Origin: a virus
Virus record (IMG/VR): IMGVR_UViG_3300037242_000417
Coordinates: 1 to 29,498 of that record
DNA length: 29,498 nt
Reading direction: 5' to 3' (one strand)
In this document: piece after piece, positions 185 through 29,496 of the stretch
Layout: every line of letters starts with the position of its first letter
Numbering within the stretch: position 1 is the first letter of the stretch
Program-made: the position numbers and the translations under genes
Notes under the pieces: generated by a model
Seen by the model: only the letters and a program-made list of their open reading frames with translations
Told to the model about the DNA's origin: nothing
The model's database searches: none

Positions 185-475
185 TCAATCGACTCCGCAA
201 GCCGCCGCGCTTCGCCGGCCTGCGCGGCGCGCGTTGGTTTGCCGGTCTGCGCGGCGCGCGCTGATTTGGACGAGAACTCTTCGGGTGGGCGAGACCTCGG
301 AGGGGCGATTCGTGCGGACGGCGCTGCCCTTCTCGATCGCTTGGAGCGCCCAGTTCGAGAGGACCGTGAGCGCATCCAGGCCAAGAGAAAATTCCTTCGA
401 TTGCGGGGAATGTATTCGATCCGGAAAGTCAAAAGATGTGTCGCCCCCTGCCTGCCGGCAGGCAGGGGGCGGCAC
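185..475 (-). CDS. Small hypothetical protein, 5' end lying in a repeat
   Basis: The frame has an even, GC-rich codon use from about residue 30 onward and ends four bases before the Cys-rich frame at the left edge, which argues that it is a real gene. The central part looks like an amphipathic helix followed by a basic tail. The tail contains a 9-residue tandem duplication encoded by a 27-bp DNA repeat at 211-264. The only conventional in-frame start is a GTG at 473-475, inside a family B repeat fragment with a 20-bp palindrome, so the first 20 or so residues are repeat-derived. Either the start is wrong or the repeat has replaced the original 5' end. I do not recognise the family. Confidence 0.35.
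   Translation of the reverse strand: MPPPACRQAGGDTSFDFPDRIHSPQSKEFSLGLDALTVLSNWALQAIEKGSAVRTNRPSEVSPTRRVLVQISARRADRQTNARRAGRRSAAACGVD
211..264. repeat. 27-bp tandem duplication
   Basis: Two imperfect 27-bp units lie head to tail at 211-237 and 238-264, sharing TGCGCGGCGCGCG. The period is nine codons, so the minus-strand frame stays open. Confidence 0.6.
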
Positions 476-2719: not shown

Positions 2720-2724
2720 CCAAT

Positions 2725-2916
2725 TCAAAAGATGTGTCGCCCCTACGGGGCCAAAAGATTTGAGGAATAAATCTATTTGCGCATGCATACCCAGGGCTTA
2801 CGCCCTGGGTACGCGGCCCAACAATTTTTTTTTGTTCTCAAATGTTTTTCCGGAGCGCCGTAGGTGCGACACAAACGCGCGCGGAAATTGTATTTGACCA
2901 AGAAATTCAAAACATG
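2725..2916. repeat. Family B repeat, partial element
   Basis: In order it contains GTGTCGCCCCTACGGGGC, the hairpin CCCAGGGCTTACGCCCTGGG (2789-2808), a T tract, TTTTTCCGGAGCGCCGTAGG with GCGACACAAACG, and an AATTCAAAACATG end. The same blocks occur in the full-length copies at 4164-4456 and 12207-12478. The element fills the gap between the endolysin start and the small membrane-protein gene; I see no gene in it. Confidence 0.75.
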
Positions 2917-3980: not shown

Positions 3981-4038
3981 GAATGCGATTCAACGAATGT
4001 GGTTCTGCGTTTGCGAATTTGCCGTGGCCTTTGTTTTT

Positions 4039-4078
4039 GCGGGTGCCCCATCCTTGCGCAGTTTGCAAGGGTGGGTCC
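4039..4078. repeat. Family A repeat, left half
   Basis: GCGGGTGCCCCATCCTTGC...GCAAGGGTGGGTC hairpin. Its inverted partner is at 4519-4562, and a whole family B element sits between the two halves. Confidence 0.85.
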
Positions 4079-4163
4079 GTCGATTTTGTTTTTGGTTATT
4101 CGCGATTTACGCGAGCGAAATCCAGCAGTCCATTTGATTTTGGTAGGCCCGCAACGCGATCAA

Positions 4164-4456
4164 TCAGTCCCGTAGCCTGCCTGCCGGCAGGCAGGGGGCG
4201 GCACAATCTAGCCCAGGGCGGAAGCCCTGGGTACCATCACCCAATTATCTTTCTCAAATGTTTTTCCGGAGCGCCGTAGGCGCGACACAAACGACCGCGC
4301 AAATTGTATTTGATCTCACAAATTCAAGAGATGTGTCGCCCCTACGGGGCTAAAACATTTGAAGAATAAATTTATTTTTGCATTCGTTCCCAGGGCTTCC
4401 GCCCTGGGCTAGGCTGTTTCGCCCCCTGCCGGCCGGCAGGCAGGCTACGGGGCTGG
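4164..4456. repeat. Family B MITE-like element, full length
   Basis: This element of about 290 bp has complementary ends: AGTCCCGTAG at the left and CTACGGGGCTGG at the right. Each end carries the CCTGCC/GGCAGG palindrome and an adjoining hairpin made of CCCAGGG and CCCTGGG arms. The centre holds CCGGAGCGCCGTAGGCGCGACACA and its counterpart GTGTCGCCCCTACGGGGC. It has no coding capacity that I can support. It lies inside the spacer of a family A pair (4039/4519), suggesting later insertion. Confidence 0.8.
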
Positions 4457-4518
4457 TTCGTGACGACGCGGCGATTATCGATTTTGTTTGGCGCGCGAAG
4501 AGCTAAAACCAAAATCGA

Positions 4519-5286: not shown

Positions 5287-5688
5287 TCACGCGACGTCGA
5301 CTTTGCGCGTGAAACACGGCCACGGATCGCGGCGCCAGCCTAGACGCGCGAGACGCCGGCCGAACGCGCGCGCGACCGGCGGCGGCAGAAACGCCTGCGC
5401 GTCGTCGAGCCCGCGCGCGGCGGCGTCGCGGCGCGTGGCTTCGTGCATCACCAGAAAACGCTGCCAGCGATCGCGCGGCGTGCCCGCGCGCGGATCGTGT
5501 AGCAAATAAGTTTCGGCCGTCAGCCGCAGCAGCACGGCCATCGCCGGCGCCCCGGAATCGTCCTCAAGCACCAATTTTGAAATGAACAGCGGATTCGATA
5601 GATCCGGAAACGGATAATTGAAACCTTGCGCAGCGTGAAGTCGACGCAACGCGTCGAGATCGGTTTCTTTATATTCGCGGATCAACAT
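5287..5688 (-). CDS. GNAT-fold N-acetyltransferase-like protein
   Basis: The 133-aa protein opens like many GNAT domains: MLIREYKETDLDAL, a helix, then beta strands ending LVLEDDSG and APAMAVLL around residues 40-53. A C-terminal part with a helix and the GRRLARLGW segment resembles the usual last GNAT strand/helix. The acetyl-CoA-binding R/QxxGxG/A motif is not evident where expected; the region around 70-95 has only DPRAG and a charged helix. It may therefore be a catalytically dead or structural relative. GNAT-like genes occur among phage structural operons. The start at 5688 is the only reasonable ATG but lacks a clear Shine-Dalgarno; a family A repeat lies about 50 bp upstream. Confidence 0.7.
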   Translation of the reverse strand: MLIREYKETDLDALRRLHAAQGFNYPFPDLSNPLFISKLVLEDDSGAPAMAVLLRLTAETYLLHDPRAGTPRDRWQRFLVMHEATRRDAAARGLDDAQAFLPPPVARAFGRRLARLGWRRDPWPCFTRKVDVA

Positions 5689-5737
5689 CTGTGGTGCCGA
5701 ACGACGCGCCGATTCCGCGCGGGGGTTTCGGGCGTTT

Positions 5738-5853
5738 CCGGGTGGCCCATCCTTGCGTCTTTCGCAAGGGTGGGGCTTTTGAATTTGTGATTACGCGCAG
5801 AAATCACAATCGACAGACCCACCCTTGCAGAAAGCGCAAGGATGGGCCACCCG
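5738..5853. repeat. Family A repeat pair (inverted halves)
   Basis: The left half lies at 5738-5779 and the right half at 5814-5853, separated by 34 bp. Each half is a hairpin (CCTTGCG...CGCAAGG) and the halves are mutual inverted repeats. The right half begins 50 bp after the stop of the stem-protein gene (5903) and the left half ends 49 bp before the GNAT start. Confidence 0.9.
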
Positions 5854-5902
5854 AAAAAGCAACGGCCACGGCAACAATGACGCCGCAACAAAACCGCCGG
5901 CG

Positions 5903-10383: not shown

Positions 10384-10423
10384 GCGCCCGCCAGGAATAC
10401 GGTCCGCGGCCGCGCATGGTTTT

Positions 10424-10601
10424 CCGGGTGCCCCATCCTTGTCCGCCGCGGCGGACAAGGGTGGGTCTTTCTTTTCTCCGTCGCGATCGACGCTACGACG
10501 AAACAAAACATCGACAGACCCACCCTCGCCTGCCTGCCGGCAGGCAGGCAGAAAACGCGAGGATGGGGCACCCGCCTTCGCCGAGGCTTCGGCGGGCAGG
10601 C
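10424..10601. repeat. Family A repeat pair with nested palindrome and GC module
   Basis: The left half lies at 10424-10468, with a GTCCGCCGCGGCGGAC tip. The right half lies at 10515-10573 and carries CCTGCCTGCCGGCAGGCAGG (10529-10548) in its loop. The CGCCTTCGCCGAGGCTTCGGCGGGCAGGCC module follows to 10601. The adaptor gene stop is about 32 bp beyond. Confidence 0.9.
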
Positions 10602-11358: not shown

Positions 11359-11464
11359 GGTTTTCTCCTTCTATAAGTTTTTCGCGGGGCCGCGGATTTC
11401 TTATCGGCGACCGAGCTCGCCCCGGGTCGCTCAGTGATCGCTAACGTTTCGGCGCGGTTGGTTT

Positions 11465-11605
11465 TCCGGGTGCCCCATCCTTGCGGTTTTGGCAAGGGTG
11501 GGTCCGGCAGTTCTGTTCCTGCGCGGCGGAAACAAACTACCCTCGATAGCATGCCGGAAAAAGAAAGACCCACCCTTGCAGAGTGCGCAAGGATGGGGCA
11601 CCCGG
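11465..11605. repeat. Family A repeat pair
   Basis: The left half is at about 11465-11504 and the right half at 11567-11605, separated by 62 bp. The right half begins 44 bp after the stop of the 59-aa membrane gene. The rest of the 11359-11648 gap shows no gene. Confidence 0.9.
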
Positions 11606-11648
11606 TAAGGCAAATTCACAAATACGCGCGCGATTGGGCGCGGTGTCC

Positions 11649-11828: not shown

Positions 11829-11922
11829 GATGTTCTCCTTTGGTTCGGATTTCGGATTCCGGAACGCGAGCGCCGCGAAAATATTGTGCGCGAGGCCGGC
11901 GCCGGCGTTCGGTTTTGGTTTT

Positions 11923-12075
11923 CCGGGTGCCCCATCCTCGCGGTTTTTGCCTGCCTGCCGGCAGGCAGGCGAGGGTGGGTCTGTCGGTTTTGTTTCTCGT
12001 CGTGATGTCAGATGAAATGCCGGAGAAAGAAAGACCCACCCTTGTCCGCCGCGGCGGACAAGGATGGGCCACCCG
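11923..12075. repeat. Family A repeat pair with nested palindrome
   Basis: The left half (11923-11982) has CCTGCCTGCCGGCAGGCAGG (11950-11969) in its loop. The right half (12032-12075) has a GTCCGCCGCGGCGGAC tip. The two halves thus use different loop modules on the same outer arms. Confidence 0.9.
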
Positions 12076-12206
12076 TAAAAGCGAATTCCGGAAATCCCGC
12101 ACGCAAATACGGCGTGTGGCACACCACGGGATTACCAATTGCGGATATGTAATCGCGTGACGACCCGCGACGGCAAACCTTCGGTCGCGCGGCGAATGTC
12201 GTTGTC

Positions 12207-12478
12207 CAGCCCCGTAGCCTGCCTGCCGGCAGGCAGGGGGCGGCACAATCTAGCCCAGGGCGGAAGCCCTGGGTAACGGAGACCTAAGTAATCTTTCTCA
12301 AATGTTTTCTGGAGCGCCGTAGGTGCGACACAAACAATCGCGGAAATGTAATTTGATCTCACAAATTCAAAACATGTGTCGCCTCTACGGTGCTTAAACA
12401 TTTGAAGAACAGATCTATTTGCGGATGCGTCCCAGGGCTGACGCCCTGGGCTAGGCTGTTTCGTCCCTGCGGGGCTGG
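12207..12478. repeat. Family B MITE-like element, full length
   Basis: This element of about 272 bp has inverted ends CAGCCCCGTAG and CTGCGGGGCTGG. The inner hairpins have CCCAGGGC/GCCCTGGG arms, and the left arm contains the 20-bp palindrome (12218-12237). It is the closest relative of the element at 4164-4456, colinear through almost all its length. Its right end overlaps the last codons of the zinc-ribbon gene (12451-12478). No gene is supported in 12076-12450. Confidence 0.85.
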
Positions 12479-13272
12479 TTTGTTTGCGCGCCGCGATCCT
12501 GGCCTGGAGCAGCTGCCGGAACATTCCTGGGCGCGACCGGCGGCGCGGGTGCGGCGGACCGTGTTGCTGACGACGCATTCGCGGCGGCGGACGTTTCGCG
12601 CGCGGGCGTTGCGATCGGCGTTGCCGTCGCCGCATCCACCGGCTCGCTCCACAATCCCAGCGCCTTCGCCTTCTCGCGATCCAAAATCGCGCCGCAGGAT
12701 TTGCATACAGCCACGTGCGGTTTCACGCGATCGCCGCAGCCAGGGCATTCGGATGTTTCGTGCAACTGATAATTCCATTCGCGCTCGAGCCCGAGCTCAT
12801 GCGCGCCGCGTCGCTGCACGTCGTCCAAGAACAAATACGAATGCGAGCGCGCCCATTCGCGATCGGCTTCGGCGACTTTGCGTCGATAAAAGGCTTCGAG
12901 ACGCCGGCGCGCGTCGGTGATCTCTTCGGCCGTGGGCTCATCGCCGGCGCAAACGAACGCTCCGAGAAAGGAATCCTCGCCCGCGTCGCCATTGATTTCG
13001 CGGCACAAATCGGCGGCGATATCTCGCGCGGAAATATTTATGTCGATGGAGCGCTTATCGCCCATATCGATCACCGCCTTGCGCGGAGTGACGCGCGTGA
13101 GCGACGGCAACGGCGCGCTCGACACCGCGCCGCCGGAGTCTTCATCGGCAGCCTGGGCAGAAGGATGCGCTCCGGCAACGTCAGCGGCGCGAATAAAAAA
13201 CGCGCCGTAGTTGCGGTGCAAACTCCAACTCTGCGCGGTCAGATTTGCGATCACAGCAGTTTCTTCGGACAT
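12451..13272 (-). CDS. Zinc-ribbon phage protein with repeat-derived C-terminus
   Basis: The ATG at 13272 follows GGGAGGAAAC, a strong ribosome site, so the 12 upstream codons are dropped. The product is 273 aa. Residues about 30-140 are of unknown type, with a helical, charged stretch near 115-140 (TAEEITDARRRLEAFYRRK). A four-Cys zinc ribbon follows at Cys176, Cys179, Cys190 and Cys193 (CPGC...CKSC). The remaining 75 residues are Ala/Pro/Thr-rich low complexity. The final residues and the TAG are encoded by the right end of a family B repeat, so the natural C-terminus may have been lost. The role is unknown; it lies in the head-completion part of the block. A structural or DNA-binding protein is possible. 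Confidence 0.75.
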   Translation of the reverse strand: MSEETAVIANLTAQSWSLHRNYGAFFIRAADVAGAHPSAQAADEDSGGAVSSAPLPSLTRVTPRKAVIDMGDKRSIDINISARDIAADLCREINGDAGEDSFLGAFVCAGDEPTAEEITDARRRLEAFYRRKVAEADREWARSHSYLFLDDVQRRGAHELGLEREWNYQLHETSECPGCGDRVKPHVAVCKSCGAILDREKAKALGLWSEPVDAATATPIATPARETSAAANASSATRSAAPAPPVAPRNVPAAAPGQDRGAQTNQPRRDETA

Positions 13273-13544
13273 TTCGTTTCCTCCCGATTCCCCGTTTCCG
13301 TTTGGCATCGACTTCGTGGCGCAGACTTTCCTGACTGTGTGTCTCGCAGCATGTGAAACTGTTGTGCTGGGCCGAATGTTTACTACTGTGGTCTGGTCTC
13401 ACGATATTTACTTGGCCAGATCTAACTAACCCTGCAAACTTGCGCTATCGAGTAGATCGAGGCGTTGTGTACCGCCGCCGTTTGCCCGATGAAGATCTTG
13501 CGACACAGGACGCAGTGCTTTTTCGCGACACGGCTGGAGGCGAG

Positions 13545-14890: not shown

Positions 14891-14908
14891 GAAAACCGGT
14901 TTTGACTT

Positions 14909-15040
14909 TCCGGGTGCCCCATCCTCGCGGTTTCCGCGAGGGTGGGGCTGTCGGTTTAGTTTCCGCCGTAATGCCGATCATGAACGGGAAAAAAAAGACC
15001 CACCCTTGTCCGCCGCGGCGGACAAGGGTGGGCCACCCGG
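14909..15040. repeat. Family A repeat pair
   Basis: The left half is at 14909-14953 and the right half at 14997-15040, with 43 bp between. The right half begins 52 bp after the stop of the major capsid gene. Confidence 0.9.
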
Positions 15041-15092
15041 AAAGACGAAACGCCGGAAACGCGGCGCGATCACGATCGTGACCGCCCGCGCT

Positions 15093-16367: not shown

Positions 16368-16471
16368 GATTCACCTCGCCCCCGTTTTTGTTTTGTGTGC
16401 GTTATGGAATGAAAGATACGCAGCCACCCCGGCCGCGCCAGATCTAGAAAATTGTTTTTGTTTTCGCCTTT

Positions 16472-16600
16472 GCGGGTGTCCCATCCTTGCGGTTTGTGCC
16501 TGCCTGCCGGCAGGCAGGCAAGGGTGGGTCTTTTGTTTTCTTCTGCTCTTAAGCCACGTCGCGAAGTACGAAAAATCGAAAGACCCACCCGCCGCGAAGC
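16472..16600. repeat. Family A repeat: intact left half, eroded right half
   Basis: The left half (16472-16530) carries CCTGCCTGCCGGCAGGCAGG (16499-16518) in its loop. The right half begins GAAAGACCCACCC at 16579 but degenerates after about ten bases. It is the only clearly decayed right half among the family A pairs. Confidence 0.75.
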
Positions 16601-16663
16601 GCAACGACAATGCACGCTTCACGAACGACAGCCAAAACTGTTGGTCGCGCGATGAATGTTGTT

Positions 16664-16776
16664 GGCCAGCCCCGGAGAGGCGGCAGAGCTTAGCCCAGGG
16701 CGTAAGCCCTGGGTACGCGACCCAACAAACTCTTCTAATCAAATGGTTTTTGAGCCCCGTAGGGGCGACACATGTT
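16664..16776. repeat. Family B repeat, half element
   Basis: GGCCAGCCCCGGAGAGGCGGC, the hairpin CCCAGGGCGTAAGCCCTGGG (16694-16713) and GAGCCCCGTAGGGGCGACACATG correspond to one half of the full elements at 4164 and 12207. It fills the space before the scaffold-like gene stop; no gene is seen in 16368-16793. Confidence 0.75.
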
Positions 16777-16793
16777 TTCGTCGGGCGCAAAAC

Positions 16794-18029
16794 CTACATC
16801 GCGAAAATATCGTCGTCGCTCGTGCGCGCGTAATCAATTTCGCGCGGGCGAAGTGCGCGCGCCGCGCCACGACCGGCCGCATCGCCGCTCGCCGCTGCGC
16901 CGACGTCCACGCGGCGCGCGGCAGCTTCCGACCGCGTGGCTCGAGTGCGCGCCGTGGAGAGCACCGAATTCGTCCACTCGCCGATCACGCGTCGCGCCAC
17001 CGACGGCAGAATTTGCCGCGCGCGTCCGGAGAGCAACGACGCCACCTGCTGCTGTTCCGCCACGCCGAATCGCCAGCCGCGCAGCGATTCGCCCACTTGC
17101 GCGGAAAGCTGCGCGTCCGCCGCGAGCAATTTGCCAACTTCGCCGAAAATATCTTCGCCGATGCGCTTCACCGCACCCGCGGCCACGCCTTCCGGCAACA
17201 CTTGCTCGAGCGTCCGCGTGATCGCGCCGCGCACATCGCGCGCCACAGCTTCGTTAGTGGAATTCTCGAACGCACGATACGATTCCGCGGGAAAGCTCCC
17301 TTGCGCCGCGGAAGTCCCTTGCGAATTCGCGGCGTTAGCCGCGCCGGTCAGCGCATCGCGATCCGCACGGATCGCTTTCCGTGAATCGTTCTGGCCGTTG
17401 GCGTTTCCTGCGGGGGCATTGCTCTGCCTGTCGTTGTCAACAAGAGCCGGGGTGGGCCCATGCGCAGCCGCCTCGCGGGCATCGCCGTTCCGTCTCTCGT
17501 TGGCTTCCCTGCTCGTTCCATCGCGTTGCGCGGCGGTGATGCCGAGCAGCCGCGCAGCCTCATCGAACATCGCGCGAAACGCTGCCGGGTCGCTAGCGAA
17601 AAGCGATTGCGCGAGTGCGGTGCGCGATGCGGCGTCTCCGGAATAGTAGCCGGCGTCGAATTCGGCGAGCGACGTGACCGGCAGCGTGCGCTCAGCATTC
17701 GCATCGCGTTTCGTGTGCGATTCTGATTCCGGTTTGGCGGCGCGTTCCTCTGCGTCGGGCGCGTTATCATCGTCGCGCCGATCGTCGTCGCGCGAATCTT
17801 CCGCGCGCTTTTCTTCCCTGCTGTCGTTGCGTGGGCGTTCTTCCGTCTCGCGGTTTTCCGCGCCAGGCGCCGTATCGCGCGACGCGAATTCCGCTTCGAT
17901 CGCGTCCCCCGCGCTCTGCGAATCGGAGCCGCGCGCCGCCGATGCCGATTCCGCCTCAATCCCCAGAATCGCCTCATCGGAAAGCGGCGCCGTTTCCGTT
18001 GGCGGTGCAATTTGCGCTGTCGGTGTCAT
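16794..18029 (-). CDS. Scaffold-like protein between portal and major capsid genes
   Basis: The 411-aa product is strongly charged and Ala-rich. Residues about 45-115 are an Asp/Glu/Arg-rich region with almost no hydrophobic residues. A folded-looking segment (about 117-165, TSLAEFDAGYYSGDAASRTALAQSLF) is followed by another low-complexity stretch. The C-terminal part (about 255-380) is helical, ending in a basic/acidic tail. High charge, helical termini and the place between portal and coat genes are typical of capsid scaffolding proteins, which are needed for procapsid assembly and leave before or during packaging. There is no sequence motif to prove it. The start ATG follows GAGG. A head protease fusion was considered, but no catalytic triad is visible. 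Confidence 0.65.
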   Translation of the reverse strand: MTPTAQIAPPTETAPLSDEAILGIEAESASAARGSDSQSAGDAIEAEFASRDTAPGAENRETEERPRNDSREEKRAEDSRDDDRRDDDNAPDAEERAAKPESESHTKRDANAERTLPVTSLAEFDAGYYSGDAASRTALAQSLFASDPAAFRAMFDEAARLLGITAAQRDGTSREANERRNGDAREAAAHGPTPALVDNDRQSNAPAGNANGQNDSRKAIRADRDALTGAANAANSQGTSAAQGSFPAESYRAFENSTNEAVARDVRGAITRTLEQVLPEGVAAGAVKRIGEDIFGEVGKLLAADAQLSAQVGESLRGWRFGVAEQQQVASLLSGRARQILPSVARRVIGEWTNSVLSTARTRATRSEAAARRVDVGAAASGDAAGRGAARALRPREIDYARTSDDDIFAM

Positions 18030-18063
18030 CGAATCAACCTCGCGGGATCGTGCATTTGCTCTT

Positions 18064-18180
18064 CCGGGTGCCCCATCCTTGCGGTTTGGGCAAGGGTGGG
18101 TCTGTCGGTTTCATTTCTTCTTAGCATTCGGGAACAGAAAGACCCACCCTTGCAAACGGCGCAAGGATGGGGCACCCGGA
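18064..18180. repeat. Family A repeat pair
   Basis: The left half is at 18064-18104 and the right half at 18140-18180, only 35 bp apart. The right half begins 15 bp after the portal stop and the left half ends 35 bp before the start of the scaffold-like gene. Confidence 0.9.
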
Positions 18181-18195
18181 AGAGCAACGCCCGCG

Positions 18196-20958
18196 CTAAC
18201 GCGATTTCGTTTTATTGCGCCCCGGAGCCGCGGCGGCGTTTGCGATCGCGGCGGATTGCTGTTGCGCCACCAACGCGCGTTCGTGCGCGGCGGCGTGCGC
18301 GCGCACATTCGCAAAGCCCAGCGGATTTTCCATGCGCGCCGCCTGACCGGTTTCCGTCGACGCCCAGCGCCGAATTTCTTCGAGCTCCGTCGCGTGGTCG
18401 TCGAGCAAATCGTCGACCGGCACGGACGGCAGAATAATTTCGCCCGCGATAATTTCGCCATCCCCCGCGCCCGCGATCGCGGCCGGGGACGGCAGCGCGG
18501 CCGCCGCGTCGCCGTTCCTGGGAGCGCCATTCGCCTGAATGGCGCCTTGCGCGTTTTCATTCGGCGGCGAAGAGCGGGCGGAGTCGAACTCCGCCCCTGC
18601 AGAAGACGACTGTACTGCGGAAACATTACGATCCCCGCGCGGCGCGACCGGCACCCGCACCGGCACAATCAACGGCGCCGACGTGAGGAGCTGCTGAGTC
18701 TCGCGCATCTGCTTCACGCGCGCGTCTTCGCCGGGCACCACAAGCTCCGAGAGCCCGAGGCAACTCTTGATGTAGCCGATATTCGCGGGATCGGTGAGCG
18801 CGCGCTGCACCATCGGATCGTTCACCGACATCAATTGTTGAATCACGGCGCGCTGCTGCGATTTTTGACGCGGAAACGCTTCGTCGCTCTCCGGATGCGC
18901 GAAAATGTTGCCTTTCAAATCGGCTAGGCGAATCCAGCGCGAACGAAAAATGCCGTCTTCGCCGAGCAGCGGAATTTCCACGTCGTCGGGCCGATTCTTC
19001 CTGAAGCAATCGACGCCGAGCAGCATCACGTCGGAATAAAAGTTTTTCAGCCTCCGCCACACCAGCCCCAATCGGCCGAGCGCTTGATCGCGCGCCATGG
19101 CGTATCCCGTGGCGGTTTTCTGCGATTCCATTTCGCCGCCGAACACCGCGGGAAATAGTCCGGAAAGAAATTGCGGGATCGGCCCCATCAATTCTTCCTG
19201 ATGACGCAGCATATCGGGCGGCACTTGCGCCGGCGCGGGCTGGAAAAAACTCGCGGCCAGCGGCTGACCCGGGCGCGCGCGCGCCGGATAATGCGCGGCG
19301 GGCTCGGCAGTCTGCTGTTGCAGCGCGTCGAAATCGATCACTTGCGGATCGGCGTAAATCGGCGGAATGCCGTACTCGTAAGTTTCCGCCTGAATATTCG
19401 AGAGCGTGTTGTAACGCTCCTGAATTTCCACCAGCGAGCTGCCCACGGCCGGGCGATTCTGACCGTCGCCGGGCAGCGCGTGCAGCACGCGCCAGCGATC
19501 GTCCATCGTTTCGCTGCGCGATTCGCAATACGTGTCGCCGGCGAATCCGGCGTAGCAGCCGTCGGGGAAAAGTTGCAGCAGCGCTTCGCGCACCGCGGCG
19601 TCTTCAATCGCGTGAAAAGCCCACGGACGAATCCAGGTGCGCGAAAAAGTCACAAGATTTACCAGCGCGTCGCCGGGCAGCGTTGTCGGCATGCCCTGCG
19701 CGATCGAAACGCGCGAGGCGCGCGCGTAAACGTCGTCGGCTTCCGCGGGACCGCCCATTTCGATTTTGTCGGCGGCGTGCGGATACGCGGCTTTCAATTT
19801 CGCGCGATGCACTTCCATCTGCCATTGCAGATAGGGAAATTCGTGCATCTCGTTGGCCCACACCGGCGTGTTCAATTCCAATCCGCCGACGATGGAAATT
19901 ACCTCTTGTCCATTCGGCACGCGCCGCGAGCCAACCACACGCGGCACGCAAACCGTTTCCGCCGTGTGCAAATCATCGGCCGTGAGCGCCGCGCCGCATG
20001 CCGAGCACGCGGTCTCGGTCTCTGCGCGACTCCGCGAACTCTGCGTCTCAGCGTTATCTTTCTCCGGCAGCTTCCCTGCTGCTGAAGCCTCTGTAATTCC
20101 TCCGGCTGCCGGCGTTTCGATTCCGCATTGCGGGCAAACGTAATAATCCGGGCCGAGCGCGATTTCAACCGGCTCGATATTCGGTTCATCGTGCCAACCG
20201 AAACGTTGCGCGTCGGCCACGTAGCGCACATAGCCGCCAACTTTGCCGTCGGTCCACAGAAAAAATGCAAGCGCCGTGAGCATGCGCTCGACGTGATTGT
20301 TGCGCTCGACCAAATCCGCGACTTCGCTCGCGACGCGCGCCGCCGATAAATCCAGCAGCGATTGCGCCGACTGCGGATAAAAGCGCGTAGTCGGCACATC
20401 CTGACTGAGCACCGAAATAAACGAGAGCCCGAACGCCTGGTACAAATTGGTGACGAATTGATAGCGCGGCATGTCCTCCGAAGATTGCCCATTGTGCGCG
20501 CCGACTTCCGTCGGCAAATGCCATTGCTGATCGCCCGGATTCCACCACGCGTATTGCATGCCCTGCCAAAAAAGTCGCGCCTGGCGAATACGCCGAATTT
20601 CGTAGCGTCGCGCGGAAAGTCCCTCTTCTCGATACTGAACCACCAGGCTGCGCAGAGCGTTCACGATCCGCGGCGCGAGTTCTTCCAGGCGCTCGTTGTT
20701 CGGACCGAGTTCGTCGGCCGATGGCAGCGCGATCGCGGGCGCATTTGCTCCGGGAGATGGCGCGTTGTCGCTCGGCGGCACAACGCCGGGATTGCTCCCA
20801 TCGCGCTCGACAATTTCGCCCGGCGCATTCGGCGCAGCGCCGCCGCCGTTACCCGCCGCGCCACCATTCGCCGCGGCGTTCGCTCCACTTGTCGCAGAGG
20901 CCGACGCACCCGACGTCAGCGCAGCCCATGCATCTTCGAGATTAATCGCTGTCGACAT
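18196..20958 (-). CDS. Portal protein (P22-like podovirus type) with a zinc-ribbon insertion
   Basis: The 920-aa product is the longest head protein here and larger than the roughly 725-aa P22 portal. After an Ala/Gly-rich N-terminal extension (about 1-80) comes a portal-like helical region (about 85-240, including LFWQGMQYAWWNPGDQQW). A zinc-ribbon-like insert follows with Cys275, Cys278, Cys318 and Cys321. The core (about 345-720) includes QERYNTLSNIQAETYEYGIPP and ESQKTATGYAMARDQALGRLG, the latter typical of portal stem/wing segments. A long low-complexity C-terminal tail completes it. Twelve copies would form the packaging channel that engages the terminase. It lies downstream of terminase and upstream of the scaffold-like gene, as expected. 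The identification is by motif, size and order. Confidence 0.85.
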   Translation of the reverse strand: MSTAINLEDAWAALTSGASASATSGANAAANGGAAGNGGGAAPNAPGEIVERDGSNPGVVPPSDNAPSPGANAPAIALPSADELGPNNERLEELAPRIVNALRSLVVQYREEGLSARRYEIRRIRQARLFWQGMQYAWWNPGDQQWHLPTEVGAHNGQSSEDMPRYQFVTNLYQAFGLSFISVLSQDVPTTRFYPQSAQSLLDLSAARVASEVADLVERNNHVERMLTALAFFLWTDGKVGGYVRYVADAQRFGWHDEPNIEPVEIALGPDYYVCPQCGIETPAAGGITEASAAGKLPEKDNAETQSSRSRAETETACSACGAALTADDLHTAETVCVPRVVGSRRVPNGQEVISIVGGLELNTPVWANEMHEFPYLQWQMEVHRAKLKAAYPHAADKIEMGGPAEADDVYARASRVSIAQGMPTTLPGDALVNLVTFSRTWIRPWAFHAIEDAAVREALLQLFPDGCYAGFAGDTYCESRSETMDDRWRVLHALPGDGQNRPAVGSSLVEIQERYNTLSNIQAETYEYGIPPIYADPQVIDFDALQQQTAEPAAHYPARARPGQPLAASFFQPAPAQVPPDMLRHQEELMGPIPQFLSGLFPAVFGGEMESQKTATGYAMARDQALGRLGLVWRRLKNFYSDVMLLGVDCFRKNRPDDVEIPLLGEDGIFRSRWIRLADLKGNIFAHPESDEAFPRQKSQQRAVIQQLMSVNDPMVQRALTDPANIGYIKSCLGLSELVVPGEDARVKQMRETQQLLTSAPLIVPVRVPVAPRGDRNVSAVQSSSAGAEFDSARSSPPNENAQGAIQANGAPRNGDAAAALPSPAAIAGAGDGEIIAGEIILPSVPVDDLLDDHATELEEIRRWASTETGQAARMENPLGFANVRAHAAAHERALVAQQQSAAIANAAAAPGRNKTKSR
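18576..18596. repeat. Palindromic repeat inside the portal gene (C-terminal tail)
   Basis: GGGCGGAGT-CGA-ACTCCGCCC is a perfect nine-base inverted repeat. It lies in the Ser/Ala-rich portal tail and preserves the frame. Confidence 0.6.
20010..20060. repeat. Repeat-like segment in frame within the portal zinc ribbon
   Basis: Read on the minus strand this contains AACGCTGAGACGCAGAG followed by further GAGTCGCGCAGAG repeats. Sequences of this type (AACGCAGAGACGCAGAG) are, from memory, dispersed repeats in Acidobacteria-like genomes. It encodes DNAETQSSRSRAETE between the two CxxC pairs of the portal ribbon. Confidence 0.45.
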
Positions 20959-21839: not shown

Positions 21840-21900
21840 CAGTCGTTCCGTCACAGTTGTCACCAAGCGCGCAAGCGATCTCGTCGCGGCCTTTGCCTTT

Positions 21901-22047
21901 CCGGGTGCCCCATCCTTGCGGTTTTTGCAAGGGTGGGTCTGTCGATTTGTTTTTCGTTCGGGCGTCGACCTGCCGGTCGCCGGGTGTTGATCGCAAACGG
22001 AGAAAGAAAGACCCACCCTTGCACACTGCGCAAGGATGGGGCACCCG
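21901..22047. repeat. Family A repeat pair
   Basis: The left half is at 21901-21940 and the right half at 22009-22047, with 68 bp between. The right half begins 43 bp after the stop of the large terminase gene. Confidence 0.9.
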
Positions 22048-22089
22048 CAAATGCAAAAGCCGGAAACCCCGCGCGAACACTCGGCGCGA

Positions 22090-23670
22090 TCACCATCTCC
22101 GCGGCAACGGCGCGGGGGCGCGTCCGGCGCGCGCTTCGCCGGCGAATTTGCGCAGCCAAATCGCGCGCGACGTCGGATCCTGCGCGGGAATGCGCGCGGC
22201 GAGCGCCATCTCGACGGGCATGCGCGCGGGATCCATGCGCGATTTCAAACCGTAGCGCGCGGAATCGGCGGGATCATCCCCATCGATTTTGCGAATGTCT
22301 TCCACGTTCGTGGTGTCGCGCGTGAGCGTCGGTAAGCATTCGAGCAACCGCTCGCACGCGCTGGAAATTTGCCACTGACCGGTTTCCATCATTTGATACA
22401 TGAGCATCCACCCGCCCACGCGATCGTTATCCGCCGGCGCGGGGCGCGGCAATCCGGCCGCGGCCAGACCGTCGCCCAATTGTTCGGCGATCGAAGCGTC
22501 GGCCGTGCGCTCGGCGAACGCGTCCGGCGAAAGAAATATTTCGGAGATGCGTTCCGGTTGCCCCTCGCGTCCCACGCTGCGTTCGGCGATCGCCGCGGCC
22601 AGCATGCGCGGCGATAGATGATTTTGCACCAGCTCGCGGTACGTGAGCGTTGATCCATCCGGCCGCGCGGTGTGCCAATAAACCGCGCTGGGATGCTCGA
22701 ATCCCCAATCGATCGAAATCCAGCGCGGCCACCACTTTTCAAATTGAATGCTGTGCGAAGCCACCACGTGCCGCGCGTGATCGAACGAATCGAAATATTG
22801 ACCGGCGAAAAGATTCCAATCGCCCTCGAGAAACGCCTGCCGTAAAGCCCGCGGCAGCGAGCGCAGCGTTTTCAAATATCTTTCGTCGTTCGCGTAGATC
22901 GGGTTGTCGCGAACCGTGGCGGGTATGAAATCGTAGTCACCGGGATCGTATTCGTCCGCATCTTCCATGCCCGGCGCGGCGCGCTTATCGATCCACAGCG
23001 CTTTCACCCAGGCGTGCCCCGTGTTGCCGGGGTTCGTTGCGCCGGCCATTCTCGGAATCGCATCCGCCAGCCGGCAGCGATTTCGCGACGTCAGAAATTG
23101 CCACTGTCGCAGCGTGAAGTGCGTGAGCTCATCGATGCCGATGAAAACGTACTCCGCGCCCTGATATTGATAAATATCGTTCTCGCTGGCCGAATATCCG
23201 AAGCGCGTCGTGGAACCGTTGTTCCAGGTGACGATGTGCTTGGTGTCGTTGTAACGAAGATACAAATCGCGCGGAACGTCGCGCCGGAAATAAGTCAGCA
23301 GCGAACTTTCAAGCTCCGGAAACGTGCGCCGCAAAAGCAGCGTGTCCACGCCCTTATATTTGTTGGCCTGGTAGATCGTTTCGTACAACAGCGCTTTCGT
23401 TTTGCCGGGTCCCGCCGCGCCGCCGAACAATCGGTATTTCGCCGGAGATTCGTGAAATTCTTTTTGCCGCGGATGTGGGTCGTAAAGAGTGGCGATTTCG
23501 ATCGCGCGCGCCGGCGTCTCGCTCAGCTCAGGCGCGTGTTTTCCGCGCTGCTTGGACGAAGCATCACCGCGCTCCTTCTTCGGCGCTGGCTTTTTCTTTC
23601 CCTTGCGCTCCACGTGTGGCCGCGATTCATTTCTGGTTTTGGTGTGCCTTTGCTTTTCCGGGCGCCCCAT
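22090..23670 (-). CDS. terL: Phage terminase, large subunit (ATPase + nuclease)
   Basis: The motor that packages DNA into the procapsid. The 526-aa product carries a Walker A motif GGAAGPGKT (about 83-91), a Walker B strand ending VFIGIDE (175-181) and the coupling motif ATNPGN (211-216). A C-terminal RNase H-like nuclease domain follows, starting at WISIDWGFEHP (Asp321) with further acidic residues such as Asp383 and Asp416 in suitable places. The length is normal for a podovirus or siphovirus TerL. The N-terminal 50 residues are Lys/Arg-rich and atypical. The nominal ATG at 23670 lies inside a family A repeat half and has no ribosome site; a GTG at 23613 is an alternative. It precedes the portal gene through two small genes. 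Confidence 0.95.
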   Translation of the reverse strand: MGRPEKQRHTKTRNESRPHVERKGKKKPAPKKERGDASSKQRGKHAPELSETPARAIEIATLYDPHPRQKEFHESPAKYRLFGGAAGPGKTKALLYETIYQANKYKGVDTLLLRRTFPELESSLLTYFRRDVPRDLYLRYNDTKHIVTWNNGSTTRFGYSASENDIYQYQGAEYVFIGIDELTHFTLRQWQFLTSRNRCRLADAIPRMAGATNPGNTGHAWVKALWIDKRAAPGMEDADEYDPGDYDFIPATVRDNPIYANDERYLKTLRSLPRALRQAFLEGDWNLFAGQYFDSFDHARHVVASHSIQFEKWWPRWISIDWGFEHPSAVYWHTARPDGSTLTYRELVQNHLSPRMLAAAIAERSVGREGQPERISEIFLSPDAFAERTADASIAEQLGDGLAAAGLPRPAPADNDRVGGWMLMYQMMETGQWQISSACERLLECLPTLTRDTTNVEDIRKIDGDDPADSARYGLKSRMDPARMPVEMALAARIPAQDPTSRAIWLRKFAGEARAGRAPAPLPRRW

Positions 23671-23703
23671 CCGTGCCCGCTGCGGCGGACAAGGGTGGAT
23701 CTG
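23658..23703. repeat. Family A repeat, left half (solitary)
   Basis: CCGGGCGCCCCATCCGTGCCCG...GGACAAGGGTGGATCTG is a variant left half without a right partner nearby. It overlaps the apparent start of the large terminase gene. Confidence 0.75.
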
Positions 23704-23770
23704 TCAATCTCGTTTCGACGCGGGCGTCGGCCTGCCGGTCGCCTTGAATTCGGATGGTCCACATCACGAT

Positions 23771-23893
23771 GAACCAGCCCCGTAGGGGCGGCACAATTTA
23801 GCCCAGGGCGTAAGCCCTGGGTACGCGCCCCTAATTTATTCTCCTCAAATCTTTTTCCGAGCCCCGTAGGGGCGACACATCTTTTGAATTTGT
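23771..23893. repeat. Family B repeat, half element
   Basis: CCAGCCCCGTAGGGGCGGCACAA, the hairpin CCCAGGGCGTAAGCCCTGGG and GAGCCCCGTAGGGGCGACACAT match the half at 16664-16776 closely. No gene is seen in 23704-23938. Confidence 0.8.
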
Positions 23894-26856: not shown

Positions 26857-29496
26857 CTAATTCGGATTGCCAACGACGATGTAATCAAACGCGTCGCTCG
26901 CGCCCGTGCAAATCACCGCGAACGACGACGCCGATTTCGCGCTCAAGCTCGCGCCGCCGTGCGTGGTTTCATCGAAAATGATGATCACCGGCGTCGAAGA
27001 ATACGCGTTCGCGAACACGATGGTCTGCGCGCCGGATGAGCACGCCGACACGCCCGCGAAATCGCTGTTCGCCGCGGACTGATTCATGTGCCCGCCATTG
27101 ATAAATCCGCCCTGCCCGCGAATAAAATCGCCGGCCGCGTCGACCACATGCTGCGGCGCGGCGGTGCCGAATCCAGTGTTGCCCTGCAGCACATAATGAT
27201 TTCCATTCGCGGTGAAGCGCACCACAGAAGCGTTGCCCGCCTCGGTGCCCGGGTTCGGCGGAAGACTCGCGGTCAGCGACGCGCCGGTATCCACAATTGT
27301 CGGTGAAGAATTCGCGATATACCCCGTGATGCCGGACGCGCCGCCCGCGCGCCCGTAAAGTTTGTAGCTCGCCGCGCCCGAGCTGGCCGCGCACGCGACG
27401 GAAACTTCGCCGTGCCCGCTGCCACCCGAAACTGTCGCGCTCACCAGCGGCGACCACCACGATTCGTACGGCGTCGAAGTCGTCGGCACATCAAGACCGT
27501 TCAGCGCGGTCATTATATAAGTGTAAGTTCCATCGGCCAGCGTTCCGCCGCTGGTCGCCGGAGTCGCCGTGCAGTTGCCCGGCGCTTGCAATCCGACATT
27601 CAGCGATCCGCCCTGCTGCCCCGCGCTCGCCGCCTGATTGTCCGTCGCGGTCACGCGACTCGCACCGAAGCCCGCCGTTCCGAGGCTGGTCATGAATCCG
27701 CACGAGGTCGCCGTGCCCTGAAAAATCTGCGCGCTCGGTCCGCTGAGTATCGTCAGGCCATTCACGCACGGATTTCCGCCGAATACTCCCAGCACCGACG
27801 AGCCGATGAACGGCGTCTCGCCACCGCCGCCCTCATTCGCAATGTTGATCACGACGTCCTGAATGGGCGTGTAATAGCCGACGATATTGATGAACGGAAT
27901 GTTGCTGCCCGCGGAATCCGAAACGGCGTCACTGTCGATCTCGATCAAATCGAAAGATTGGTTCCGCGAGTCCATGTCGATTTGCGAAGTCGGCGCGGAT
28001 TCCATCAGCACGTCCGCGATGTGCACGCTGTTGAAATTCGGTCCCGTGGAATAAGTTTCGCCGCGCAGCAAAATCCCGCCGTTATAAAGTCGCGCGCCAT
28101 TCACATAGTCCAGATTCGATGGCGTATTCACGCCGTTCCATCCCTCGAACGCGATCGGATCGTCGATGCCGCGCGGACCGCCTTGATCGTTTCCGATGTA
28201 GCTGCCGCCGGTGATCCAGTTCGAGCAGCAGCTGTCCTCAAATTTCACCAGCGCGCCCGCACCGCCGTCGAACCCGGTCGAATTCATTTTCACTTGCACG
28301 TTCACCAGATGATTCTCGGCGGAAAATGGGCCGGCCTCGAAGTACGCGCCGTTGGTCGTTCCGCCGTAAAGATTCTGCAGCGTGACGGTGCCGCCCACAC
28401 TGAGCCAAACCGGATACGTTCCCGCACCGGAATCGCTCGCCCGCCAACTCGCGTTCGGCGCCTGCGCATACGAGAGCACCAAATTTCCGCCGCCAATGCC
28501 CTCGAACGCCCAGCCCTGATTCACTACCGACGTGTTCGCCGCAAAAACAGTGCCGATAATATCGACGGTACAAGGCGAGCCTTCCGCGCCGGCAAACGTC
28601 AGCGTTCCGAAAATGTTGTAGACGCCGTGCGGCACATAAATCAATCCGCCGGCCGCGGCCACGCATGCGGAGTCAGCCGCGTTCGCCGCAGCGGTGTCGT
28701 CGTGCTGGATCGCGGCGGAGCTAGCGACGGCAGTCGTCGTCGCCGGCGAAACCGTGAGCGTCGTGGTTCCCGCGCCCGACGTGATCCCGCCGATGTAGCG
28801 CTCTGCTGTCGCGCTAGAGGATGGAGACGTCGGCACATTCGACGGCCATTGCGCCAGCGCGCCCGCGCCGCGATCGAACCACGGAATCGGCTGCGCGATC
28901 GAACCCGCGGTTTCTGTGGCGTTTGTGCCGCTCGATGTCCAGTTCAGTTGCAGGATGTCGCCGGAAACATAACTGATCGATGTCACCGTGAACGTGCCGT
29001 TGAAATTCGTGGTGCCGGAGACCGTCACCTGGCTGCCGACAATGGCGTAATTGCACTCCGGACAATATTGATTCACCGTCGCGGTCACGGAAGATCCGCC
29101 AGTGCGCACGATGCTTGATGCCGGCGATTGGCCGATGGCGTATGGCGGCGACGCTTCGGCGGAAAATGTGTCCCACGGCGCGCCGTCTTTATAGATCGCG
29201 AAAAATGCCGTGCCGGATTCTGGATTCACCGCGCCTTGCACATAATCGTTCGGTGTAATCGTGGCGGGCGCGCTCGTAGTCGTCACGGTTTCGACGGCGC
29301 TACAACCGCGCAGCGAATCGCACGCCGAGATTTTGTATGTGTGCGATGTCGAGCCGGCGGTTCCCTGAATAATCGTCGCCGCGCCGGTCGGCGTCGCGAG
29401 CGAGGTCGTAGCCCCGGCGCCGTTGATCGCGATTCCCTCGCCGTCCGCGAAATCGATCGCGGCGGTAAGCGGAATCGTTGTGCTCGATGCGGCCAC
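26857..29496 (-). CDS. Tail spike with pectate-lyase-like beta-helix (partial or at window edge)
   Basis: At least 879 residues are encoded, and the frame is open to the edge, so the true N-terminus may lie outside. Residues about 157-200 hold a beta module with NFNGTF. From about 265 the sequence reads DDTAAANAADSACVAAAGGL, then IYVPHGVYNIFGTLTF, the typical entry to a right-handed parallel beta-helix of pectate-lyase type, as found in spikes that bind or degrade surface polysaccharide. The middle is rich in short Asn/Gly/Val strands. The end (SSTPVIIIFDETTH...) forms a small C-terminal domain, possibly for trimerisation or binding. No catalytic residues can be assigned with confidence. A host-range determinant is the likely role. 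Confidence 0.8.
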   Translation of the reverse strand: MAASSTTIPLTAAIDFADGEGIAINGAGATTSLATPTGAATIIQGTAGSTSHTYKISACDSLRGCSAVETVTTTSAPATITPNDYVQGAVNPESGTAFFAIYKDGAPWDTFSAEASPPYAIGQSPASSIVRTGGSSVTATVNQYCPECNYAIVGSQVTVSGTTNFNGTFTVTSISYVSGDILQLNWTSSGTNATETAGSIAQPIPWFDRGAGALAQWPSNVPTSPSSSATAERYIGGITSGAGTTTLTVSPATTTAVASSAAIQHDDTAAANAADSACVAAAGGLIYVPHGVYNIFGTLTFAGAEGSPCTVDIIGTVFAANTSVVNQGWAFEGIGGGNLVLSYAQAPNASWRASDSGAGTYPVWLSVGGTVTLQNLYGGTTNGAYFEAGPFSAENHLVNVQVKMNSTGFDGGAGALVKFEDSCCSNWITGGSYIGNDQGGPRGIDDPIAFEGWNGVNTPSNLDYVNGARLYNGGILLRGETYSTGPNFNSVHIADVLMESAPTSQIDMDSRNQSFDLIEIDSDAVSDSAGSNIPFINIVGYYTPIQDVVINIANEGGGGETPFIGSSVLGVFGGNPCVNGLTILSGPSAQIFQGTATSCGFMTSLGTAGFGASRVTATDNQAASAGQQGGSLNVGLQAPGNCTATPATSGGTLADGTYTYIMTALNGLDVPTTSTPYESWWSPLVSATVSGGSGHGEVSVACAASSGAASYKLYGRAGGASGITGYIANSSPTIVDTGASLTASLPPNPGTEAGNASVVRFTANGNHYVLQGNTGFGTAAPQHVVDAAGDFIRGQGGFINGGHMNQSAANSDFAGVSACSSGAQTIVFANAYSSTPVIIIFDETTHGGASLSAKSASSFAVICTGASDAFDYIVVGNPN

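Follow-up and report, generated by a model that had tools for sequence, protein, structure and literature searches.

In IS608-type elements the ends are subterminal hairpins that are asymmetric and lack inverted repeats. Among the Y1 transposases (TnpA_Y1), subclass 1.2 is defined by the motif Y---Q--HH, an HUH motif, a WQ motif and a length of ~148 aa; its members come mostly from Cyanobacteria and Bacteroidetes, and the subclass was recorded as 'REP: no' and as generally devoid of IS200 end structures (Quentin 2018, PMC6006769). All 26 TIRYT examples were assigned to class 2 (20 of them to 2.1), with the motif GGGGWSAS (Quentin 2018, PMC6006769). REP-type repeats have been described mostly from chromosomes, and REP-poor stretches have been named REP deserts (PMC3390384). 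The palindromic element analysed here, family B, is carried by a virus and is very probably a non-autonomous, REP-like or MITE-like repeat derived from the ends of a subclass 1.2 Y1 transposon.

The window, by which we mean the whole IMG/VR virus record of 29.5 kb, encodes a terminase large subunit, and its match to a major head protein is weak. Relatives of the terminase are located in Acidobacteria MAGs, and the host of the phage is therefore most likely an acidobacterium. A search of all 29,498 nt for a Y1 transposase detected none, in agreement with the initial annotation. When the full family B element was compared with 298 genomes, the matches were confined to the ~50-bp ends, indicating that the host species of the phage is not sampled in this set; none of these genomes yielded an autonomous unit whose ends are identical to those of the window. 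A tRNA-Leu (CAG) predicted by ARAGORN at 27469-27561 overlaps the big ORF 26857-29496 on the opposite strand and is possibly false.

Two full copies with complementary ends and inner hairpins, and partial copies at 433, 2725, 16664 and 23771, had been described in the initial annotation. Both full copies (4164-4456 and 12206-12478) were confirmed. They are colinear, with 69 nt matching at 99% and 129 nt at 84%, and each of them, folded as RNA or as DNA, forms a single long imperfect palindrome. This palindrome is nearly complete: the ends CCAGCCCC...GGGGCTGG (in copy 2 exactly at 12206 and 12478, respectively) are followed inwards by the CCCAGGGC/GCCCTGGG hairpins at 4212, 4389, 12254 and 12431, and AGCGCCGTAGGTGCGACACA and TGTGTCGCCTCTACGGTGCT make up an additional inner pair. 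Each end of the element consists of three tandem hairpins, namely hB1 with a GNA triloop, hA of the CCCAGGGC/GCCCTGGG type and hB2 (Table 1). Of the four partial copies, the last two are clean halves, the one at 2725 proved to be rearranged, and the first was reduced to one weak hairpin. The exact inner-element pattern had no match in viral contigs, and a narrow hA pattern, searched in 2.9 million viral contigs, retrieved only 18 stretches, of which several are AT-rich and probably have no relation to the element. A 285-aa ORF (12451-13308, minus strand) terminates within the right hairpin of copy 2, so that insertion of the element may have supplied its stop codon; a search for relatives of this ORF found none.

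Table 1. Positions of family B elements, their modules and family A sites in the window
Feature	Position	Strand	Remarks
Family B, full copy 1	about 4164-4457	.	Same module order as copy 2
Copy 1, RF01687 match	4389-4454	+	37.4 bits
Copy 1, RF01687 match	4174-4231	-	33.9 bits
Copy 1, 20-bp palindrome family	4176, 4425		In both hB1 loops
Family B, full copy 2	12206-12478	.	hB1-hA-hB2 ~ hB2'-hA'-hB1', ~273 bp, without transposase gene
Copy 2, left end, RF01687 match	12208-12273	-	40.6 bits, above cut-off; hB1, linker, hA 12254-12273
Copy 2, nested 20-bp palindrome	12218-12237		Inside left hB1
Copy 2, left-end hB2	12314-12326	+	Third hairpin, GCGCCGTAGGTGC
Copy 2, right-end hB2'	12381-12393	-	GCACCGTAGAGGC on minus strand
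Copy 2, right end, RF01687 match	12431-12476	+	49.5 bits; hA' 12431-12450, hB1' 12463-12475
Family B, clean half-element	16667-16795	+	hB1-hA-hB2; RF01687 at 16668-16713 (-)
Family B, clean half-element	23775-23885	+	hB1-hA-hB2; RF01687 at 23776-23821 (-)
Family B, rearranged copy	2722-2873	+	Inner modules flanking one hA: hB2'-hA-hB2; RF01687 2790-2810, 23.1 bits
Family B, weak remnant	~433-470	+	One hB-type hairpin with nested 20-bp palindrome
Family A sites	2073-2137, 4027-4091, 5726-5874, 10417-10574, 11454-11634, 11908-12085		
Family A sites, continued	14898-15049, 16457-16542, 18052-18207, 21889-22076, 23651-23705		

The window contains a second, larger repeat family (family A), whose CCGGGTGCCCCATCCTTGC...GCAAGGGTGGGTC hairpins lie between many genes, often as inverted pairs. 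It is partly shared with the contigs L008 and L009 and was not seen in other close relatives. Two short palindromes always occur within hairpin loops of family A or B: the perfect 20-bp palindrome CCTGCCTGCCGGCAGGCAGG (447, 4176, 4425 as a variant, 10529, 11950, 12218 and 16499) and the 14-bp palindrome TCCGCCGCGGCGGA (4533, 10442, 12045 and 15009). None of 60 genomes from the order contained the former; in viruses it occurred in 30 stretches, in most of them standing alone. One unrelated viral contig (L266:2239-2330) has it, at 2284, within a tRNA-Met gene, where it appears to occupy the variable loop; the tRNA called by ARAGORN measures 72 nt without the palindrome and 92 nt with it. It is conceivable that the 20-bp palindrome is a mini-insertion targeting hairpin loops.

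Copies of family B are patchily distributed among near-identical phage contigs. The hairpins are absent over the compared stretches of the colinear relatives L010, L011, L012 and L021 (80-90% identical) and of L043. The half copy at 16.7 kb (16667-16795) is common to the window and L008 and is missing from L021, and the half copy at 23.8 kb (23775-23885) is missing from L009, in which the terminase is 94-95% identical and the spacer measures ~133 nt versus ~312 nt. Neither an exact empty site nor a target duplication was established. In L021 (~5430-5720, corresponding to window 16463-16788) and L009 (~60-160) we observed other palindromic repeats, of the GTAGCGGAGGCCTTCAGG...CCTGAAGGCCTCCGCTAC type; since these occupy the same intergenic spots, distinct phage lineages hold distinct repeat families.

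The ends of family B match the Rfam family RF01687 (Acido-Lenti-1), for which the gathering score of the covariance model is 37 bits. Five window matches exceeded this cut-off (top scores 61.3, 52.1 and 49.5 bits; best E 2.4e-15), and a default Rfam scan placed three above it (12431-12476 on the plus strand, 16668-16713 and 23776-23821 on the minus strand); the remaining element ends matched with lower or gapped scores. RF01687 had no match in 14 control genomes. Within each full copy the two matches are head to head, minus strand at the left end and plus strand at the right, which places hB1 outermost at both sides. Most likely, the RF01687 'RNA' is the hB1-hA part of a transposon end. We found no report in the literature linking Acido-Lenti-1 to transposases. 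Group II introns are known as associates of RF01687; the loci of 10 introns in 8 genomes yielded one weak end match (E 0.12), and this link was discarded as unsupported.

Of 60 genomes from a single acidobacterial family, 43 contained RF01687 and 52 contained Y1_Tnp, and many Y1 genes were directly flanked by inverted RF01687 matches, minus on the left and plus on the right. A Y1 gene with matching ends, which the initial annotation had proposed to look for, was thereby found in related genomes. The order of the transposon unit is hB1-hA-hB2, a ~147-aa HUH/Y1 gene and hB2'-hA'-hB1'; read through the flanks, it is hB1-linker-TAG-hA-spacer-hB2-gene-hB2'-hA'-hB1', usually 613-626 bp in length. 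The stems vary from unit to unit but match between both ends of one unit, where 39.9 of 46 positions agree, versus 27.1 of 46 between units. The window copies share the hB1-hA-hB2 order and the sequence types of these autonomous units, as a MITE would, and a 16-mer of the window hB2, GAGCGCCGTAGGTGCG, is identical in hB2 of a transposon (L096) of genome G263. We added 60 further Y1 genes with their flanks, classed all genes by motif and counted the ends with a sequence-only profile. At the threshold used, 32 of the 54 uncut subclass 1.2 genes had both ends, 11 had one and 11 had none, i.e. at least one expected end was present at 43 of 54, compared with none of the 24 RAYT-class and none of the 3 IS200-class genes. 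The orientation was the expected one for 76 ends and wrong for 5 (Fisher p ~5e-12 and binomial p ~2e-17 for the end and orientation tally), and the chance expectation was ~0.01 end copy per random gene neighbourhood.

RF01687 is also a multi-copy extragenic repeat, present in tens of copies per genome and tied to the Y1 gene. All 26 genomes with a 1.2-type gene contained it, with a median of 23.5 copies, compared with 17 of the 34 genomes in which such a gene was not detected (median 0.5; p = 6.5e-6 for the contrast). For 31 of 64 dispersed copies the nearest sequence was a transposon end of the same genome, whereas 500 shuffles gave a mean of 2.5 and a maximum of 20. By genome, the own-genome matches were 17/19 in G263, 9/10 in G351 and 1/18 in G079; given the last value, the source transposon of G079 may be unsampled. 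The dispersed copies are mostly single or tandem ends, which makes the host population REP-like, and the two window palindromes are its paired forms. Only 1 of 76 host loci was a gene-less inverted pair, so the paired form in the window is unusual. The term MITE from the initial annotation accordingly suits the two full window copies, but not most of the host copies.

The filing of Acido-Lenti-1 as an RNA suggests another explanation, namely a true small RNA or cis-RNA motif whose link to the transposase is secondary, e.g. as an RNA regulating the transposase gene. The stems do covary: 99.7% of the cells are paired, and 49 cells are double-changed versus 10.8 in shuffles. Compensatory changes of this kind had been named in advance as evidence against a mobile element; they are present, yet DNA hairpins predict stem covariation as RNA hairpins do. 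Among non-Watson-Crick stem pairs, counted in copies gathered by sequence alone, G-T outnumbers A-C (25 vs 13, p = 0.07; 75 vs 50 at a looser cut), as expected for RNA, but this wobble excess is modest by the standard of structural RNAs and at a strict cut falls to 14 vs 9 (p = 0.4). The two copies that bracket the gene are oriented head to head, which puts one of them on the antisense strand. Copy number follows the transposase, the sequence follows the resident transposon in two of the three well-sampled genomes, and the patchiness among phage contigs also speaks against this explanation. On the strand opposite to that of Rfam, the hB loop always reads C-GNA-G. REPs and REPINs are recognised by a GTAG or GGAG tetranucleotide at a palindrome's foot; the invariant C-GNA-G lies at the hB loop and not at the hairpin foot. 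GNA triloops are very stable in DNA; the ViennaRNA energies of the DNA GNA-loop strand and the RNA strand showed no useful difference. We consider a primary RNA identity improbable, and Acido-Lenti-1 may have a secondary RNA role.

The flanked proteins (~147 aa) carry the motifs D/NHxH, WQ and Y---Q--HH, and in motifs and length the transposase fits TnpA_Y1 subclass 1.2. NCBIfam classed them as IS200-type (model NF033573, 79.9 bits, cut-off 55), and the match to the ISDra2/IS608 structures was weak. In the tree, the split between subclass 1.2 and IS200 (1.1) was not clean because just three IS200 rows, all long-branched, were included. The initial annotation had suggested a 'MITE or RAYT-type' element, and its non-autonomous character with Y1 ends held. 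That family B might be a classical REP/REPIN moved by a RAYT (class 2 TnpA_REP) is in keeping with its palindromic, intergenic and repeated nature, with a GTAG adjoining the hairpin and with the presence of RAYT-class genes in the same genomes. None of the 24 RAYT-class genes, however, had these ends, and several had different inverted repeats of their own. The flanked proteins have Y---Q--HH rather than YxxNP and reached 28.6 and 18.2 bits with the RAYT model NF047646, below its cut-off of 80, and the RAYT class forms a separate branch with support of 100/100. The enzyme was therefore not retained as a RAYT, and movement of family B by RAYT is very unlikely. The RAYT-class genes of these acidobacterial genomes (L171-L198) are often bordered by strong inverted repeats of other kinds, as in L196, L177 and L186, pointing to further repeat systems.

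Outside the Acidobacteriota, a gene with the motif YIQNQKFHH on a plasmid of Persicobacter (Bacteroidota) has the same order of end modules on both sides: CCCC-AAA-GGGG, TTATTAGC, a GCGATGGGT/ACCCATCGT hairpin, CCCTGAAGGGG and the gene, followed by the mirror image. The left end is repeated at nine sites on this plasmid. A relative from Bernardetia has hairpin doublets upstream only. The three-hairpin architecture thus appears, on the evidence of one clear case (Persicobacter), not to be limited to one phylum.

Least probable of all is that the ends were pre-existing intergenic target hairpins between which a transposon inserted: insertion sequences that target REPs have been published (PMC1525189), but here the ends are fixed in inverted orientation at near-constant spacing, the left and right ends of one unit are far more alike than other ends, and on either side hB2 is internal to the unit, whereas a target would show one orientation on both sides.

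The derivation of family B from the ends of a subclass 1.2 transposon draws on direct observations: the anatomy of the element, the association of the ends with genes, their restriction to one transposase lineage, the co-variation of left and right ends, the similarity of dispersed copies to own-genome ends in two of the three genomes with good sampling, and the variable occurrence among phage relatives. By analogy, we infer that family B is mobile, probably in trans. The autonomous source would be a small single-gene transposon of Acidobacteriota with inverted three-hairpin ends. If its transposase acts like the IS200/IS605 and RAYT enzymes, it would bind the hairpins as single-stranded DNA and cleave near hB1, and single or paired ends could then be copied or moved in trans. 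The phage might have gained its copies while residing or replicating in an acidobacterium with this transposase. On balance, we lean towards regarding subclass 1.2 as a separate REP-propagating system of at least two phyla, with compound three-hairpin ends, one of them listed as Acido-Lenti-1, and with gene-less copies able to enter phages.

An Rfam family known solely as a covarying motif thereby gains a concrete identity, with the caution that an 'RNA' motif which covaries can be the end of a DNA transposon. A Y1 lineage reported without cognate ends is supplied with them, so that binding and cleavage become directly testable. A phage contig with several REP-type repeats constitutes a natural presence/absence record of their movement.

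Acido-Lenti-1 (RF01687; Weinberg 2010, PMC2864571), filed as an sRNA, here forms the inverted ends of a transposon and likewise those of repeats that lack a gene. As in REP/REPIN-RAYT systems (Nunvar 2010; Bertels and Rainey 2011, PMC3116915; Di Nocera 2013, PMC3733652), a resident Y1 gene is flanked by palindromic repeats and accompanied by a gene-less population; the differences are the other transposase lineage, the compound three-hairpin ends and the long palindromes formed by two window copies. TIRYT/TIRtrons (Di Nocera 2013, PMC3733652), which include examples from Acidobacteria, likewise have Y1 genes flanked by long inverted repeats, some of which recur in the genome, but TIRYT genes are class 2 and the present ones class 1. 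With IS200/IS605 elements (IS608, ISDra2) the HUH/Y1 catalytic domain is held in common, whereas here the ends are inverted and compound and the copy number of the gene is low. Compared with subclass 1.2 as published, mostly from Cyanobacteria and Bacteroidetes and without REPs or typical IS ends, the genes described here belong to Acidobacteriota, have clear ends and are accompanied by many dispersed copies of them.
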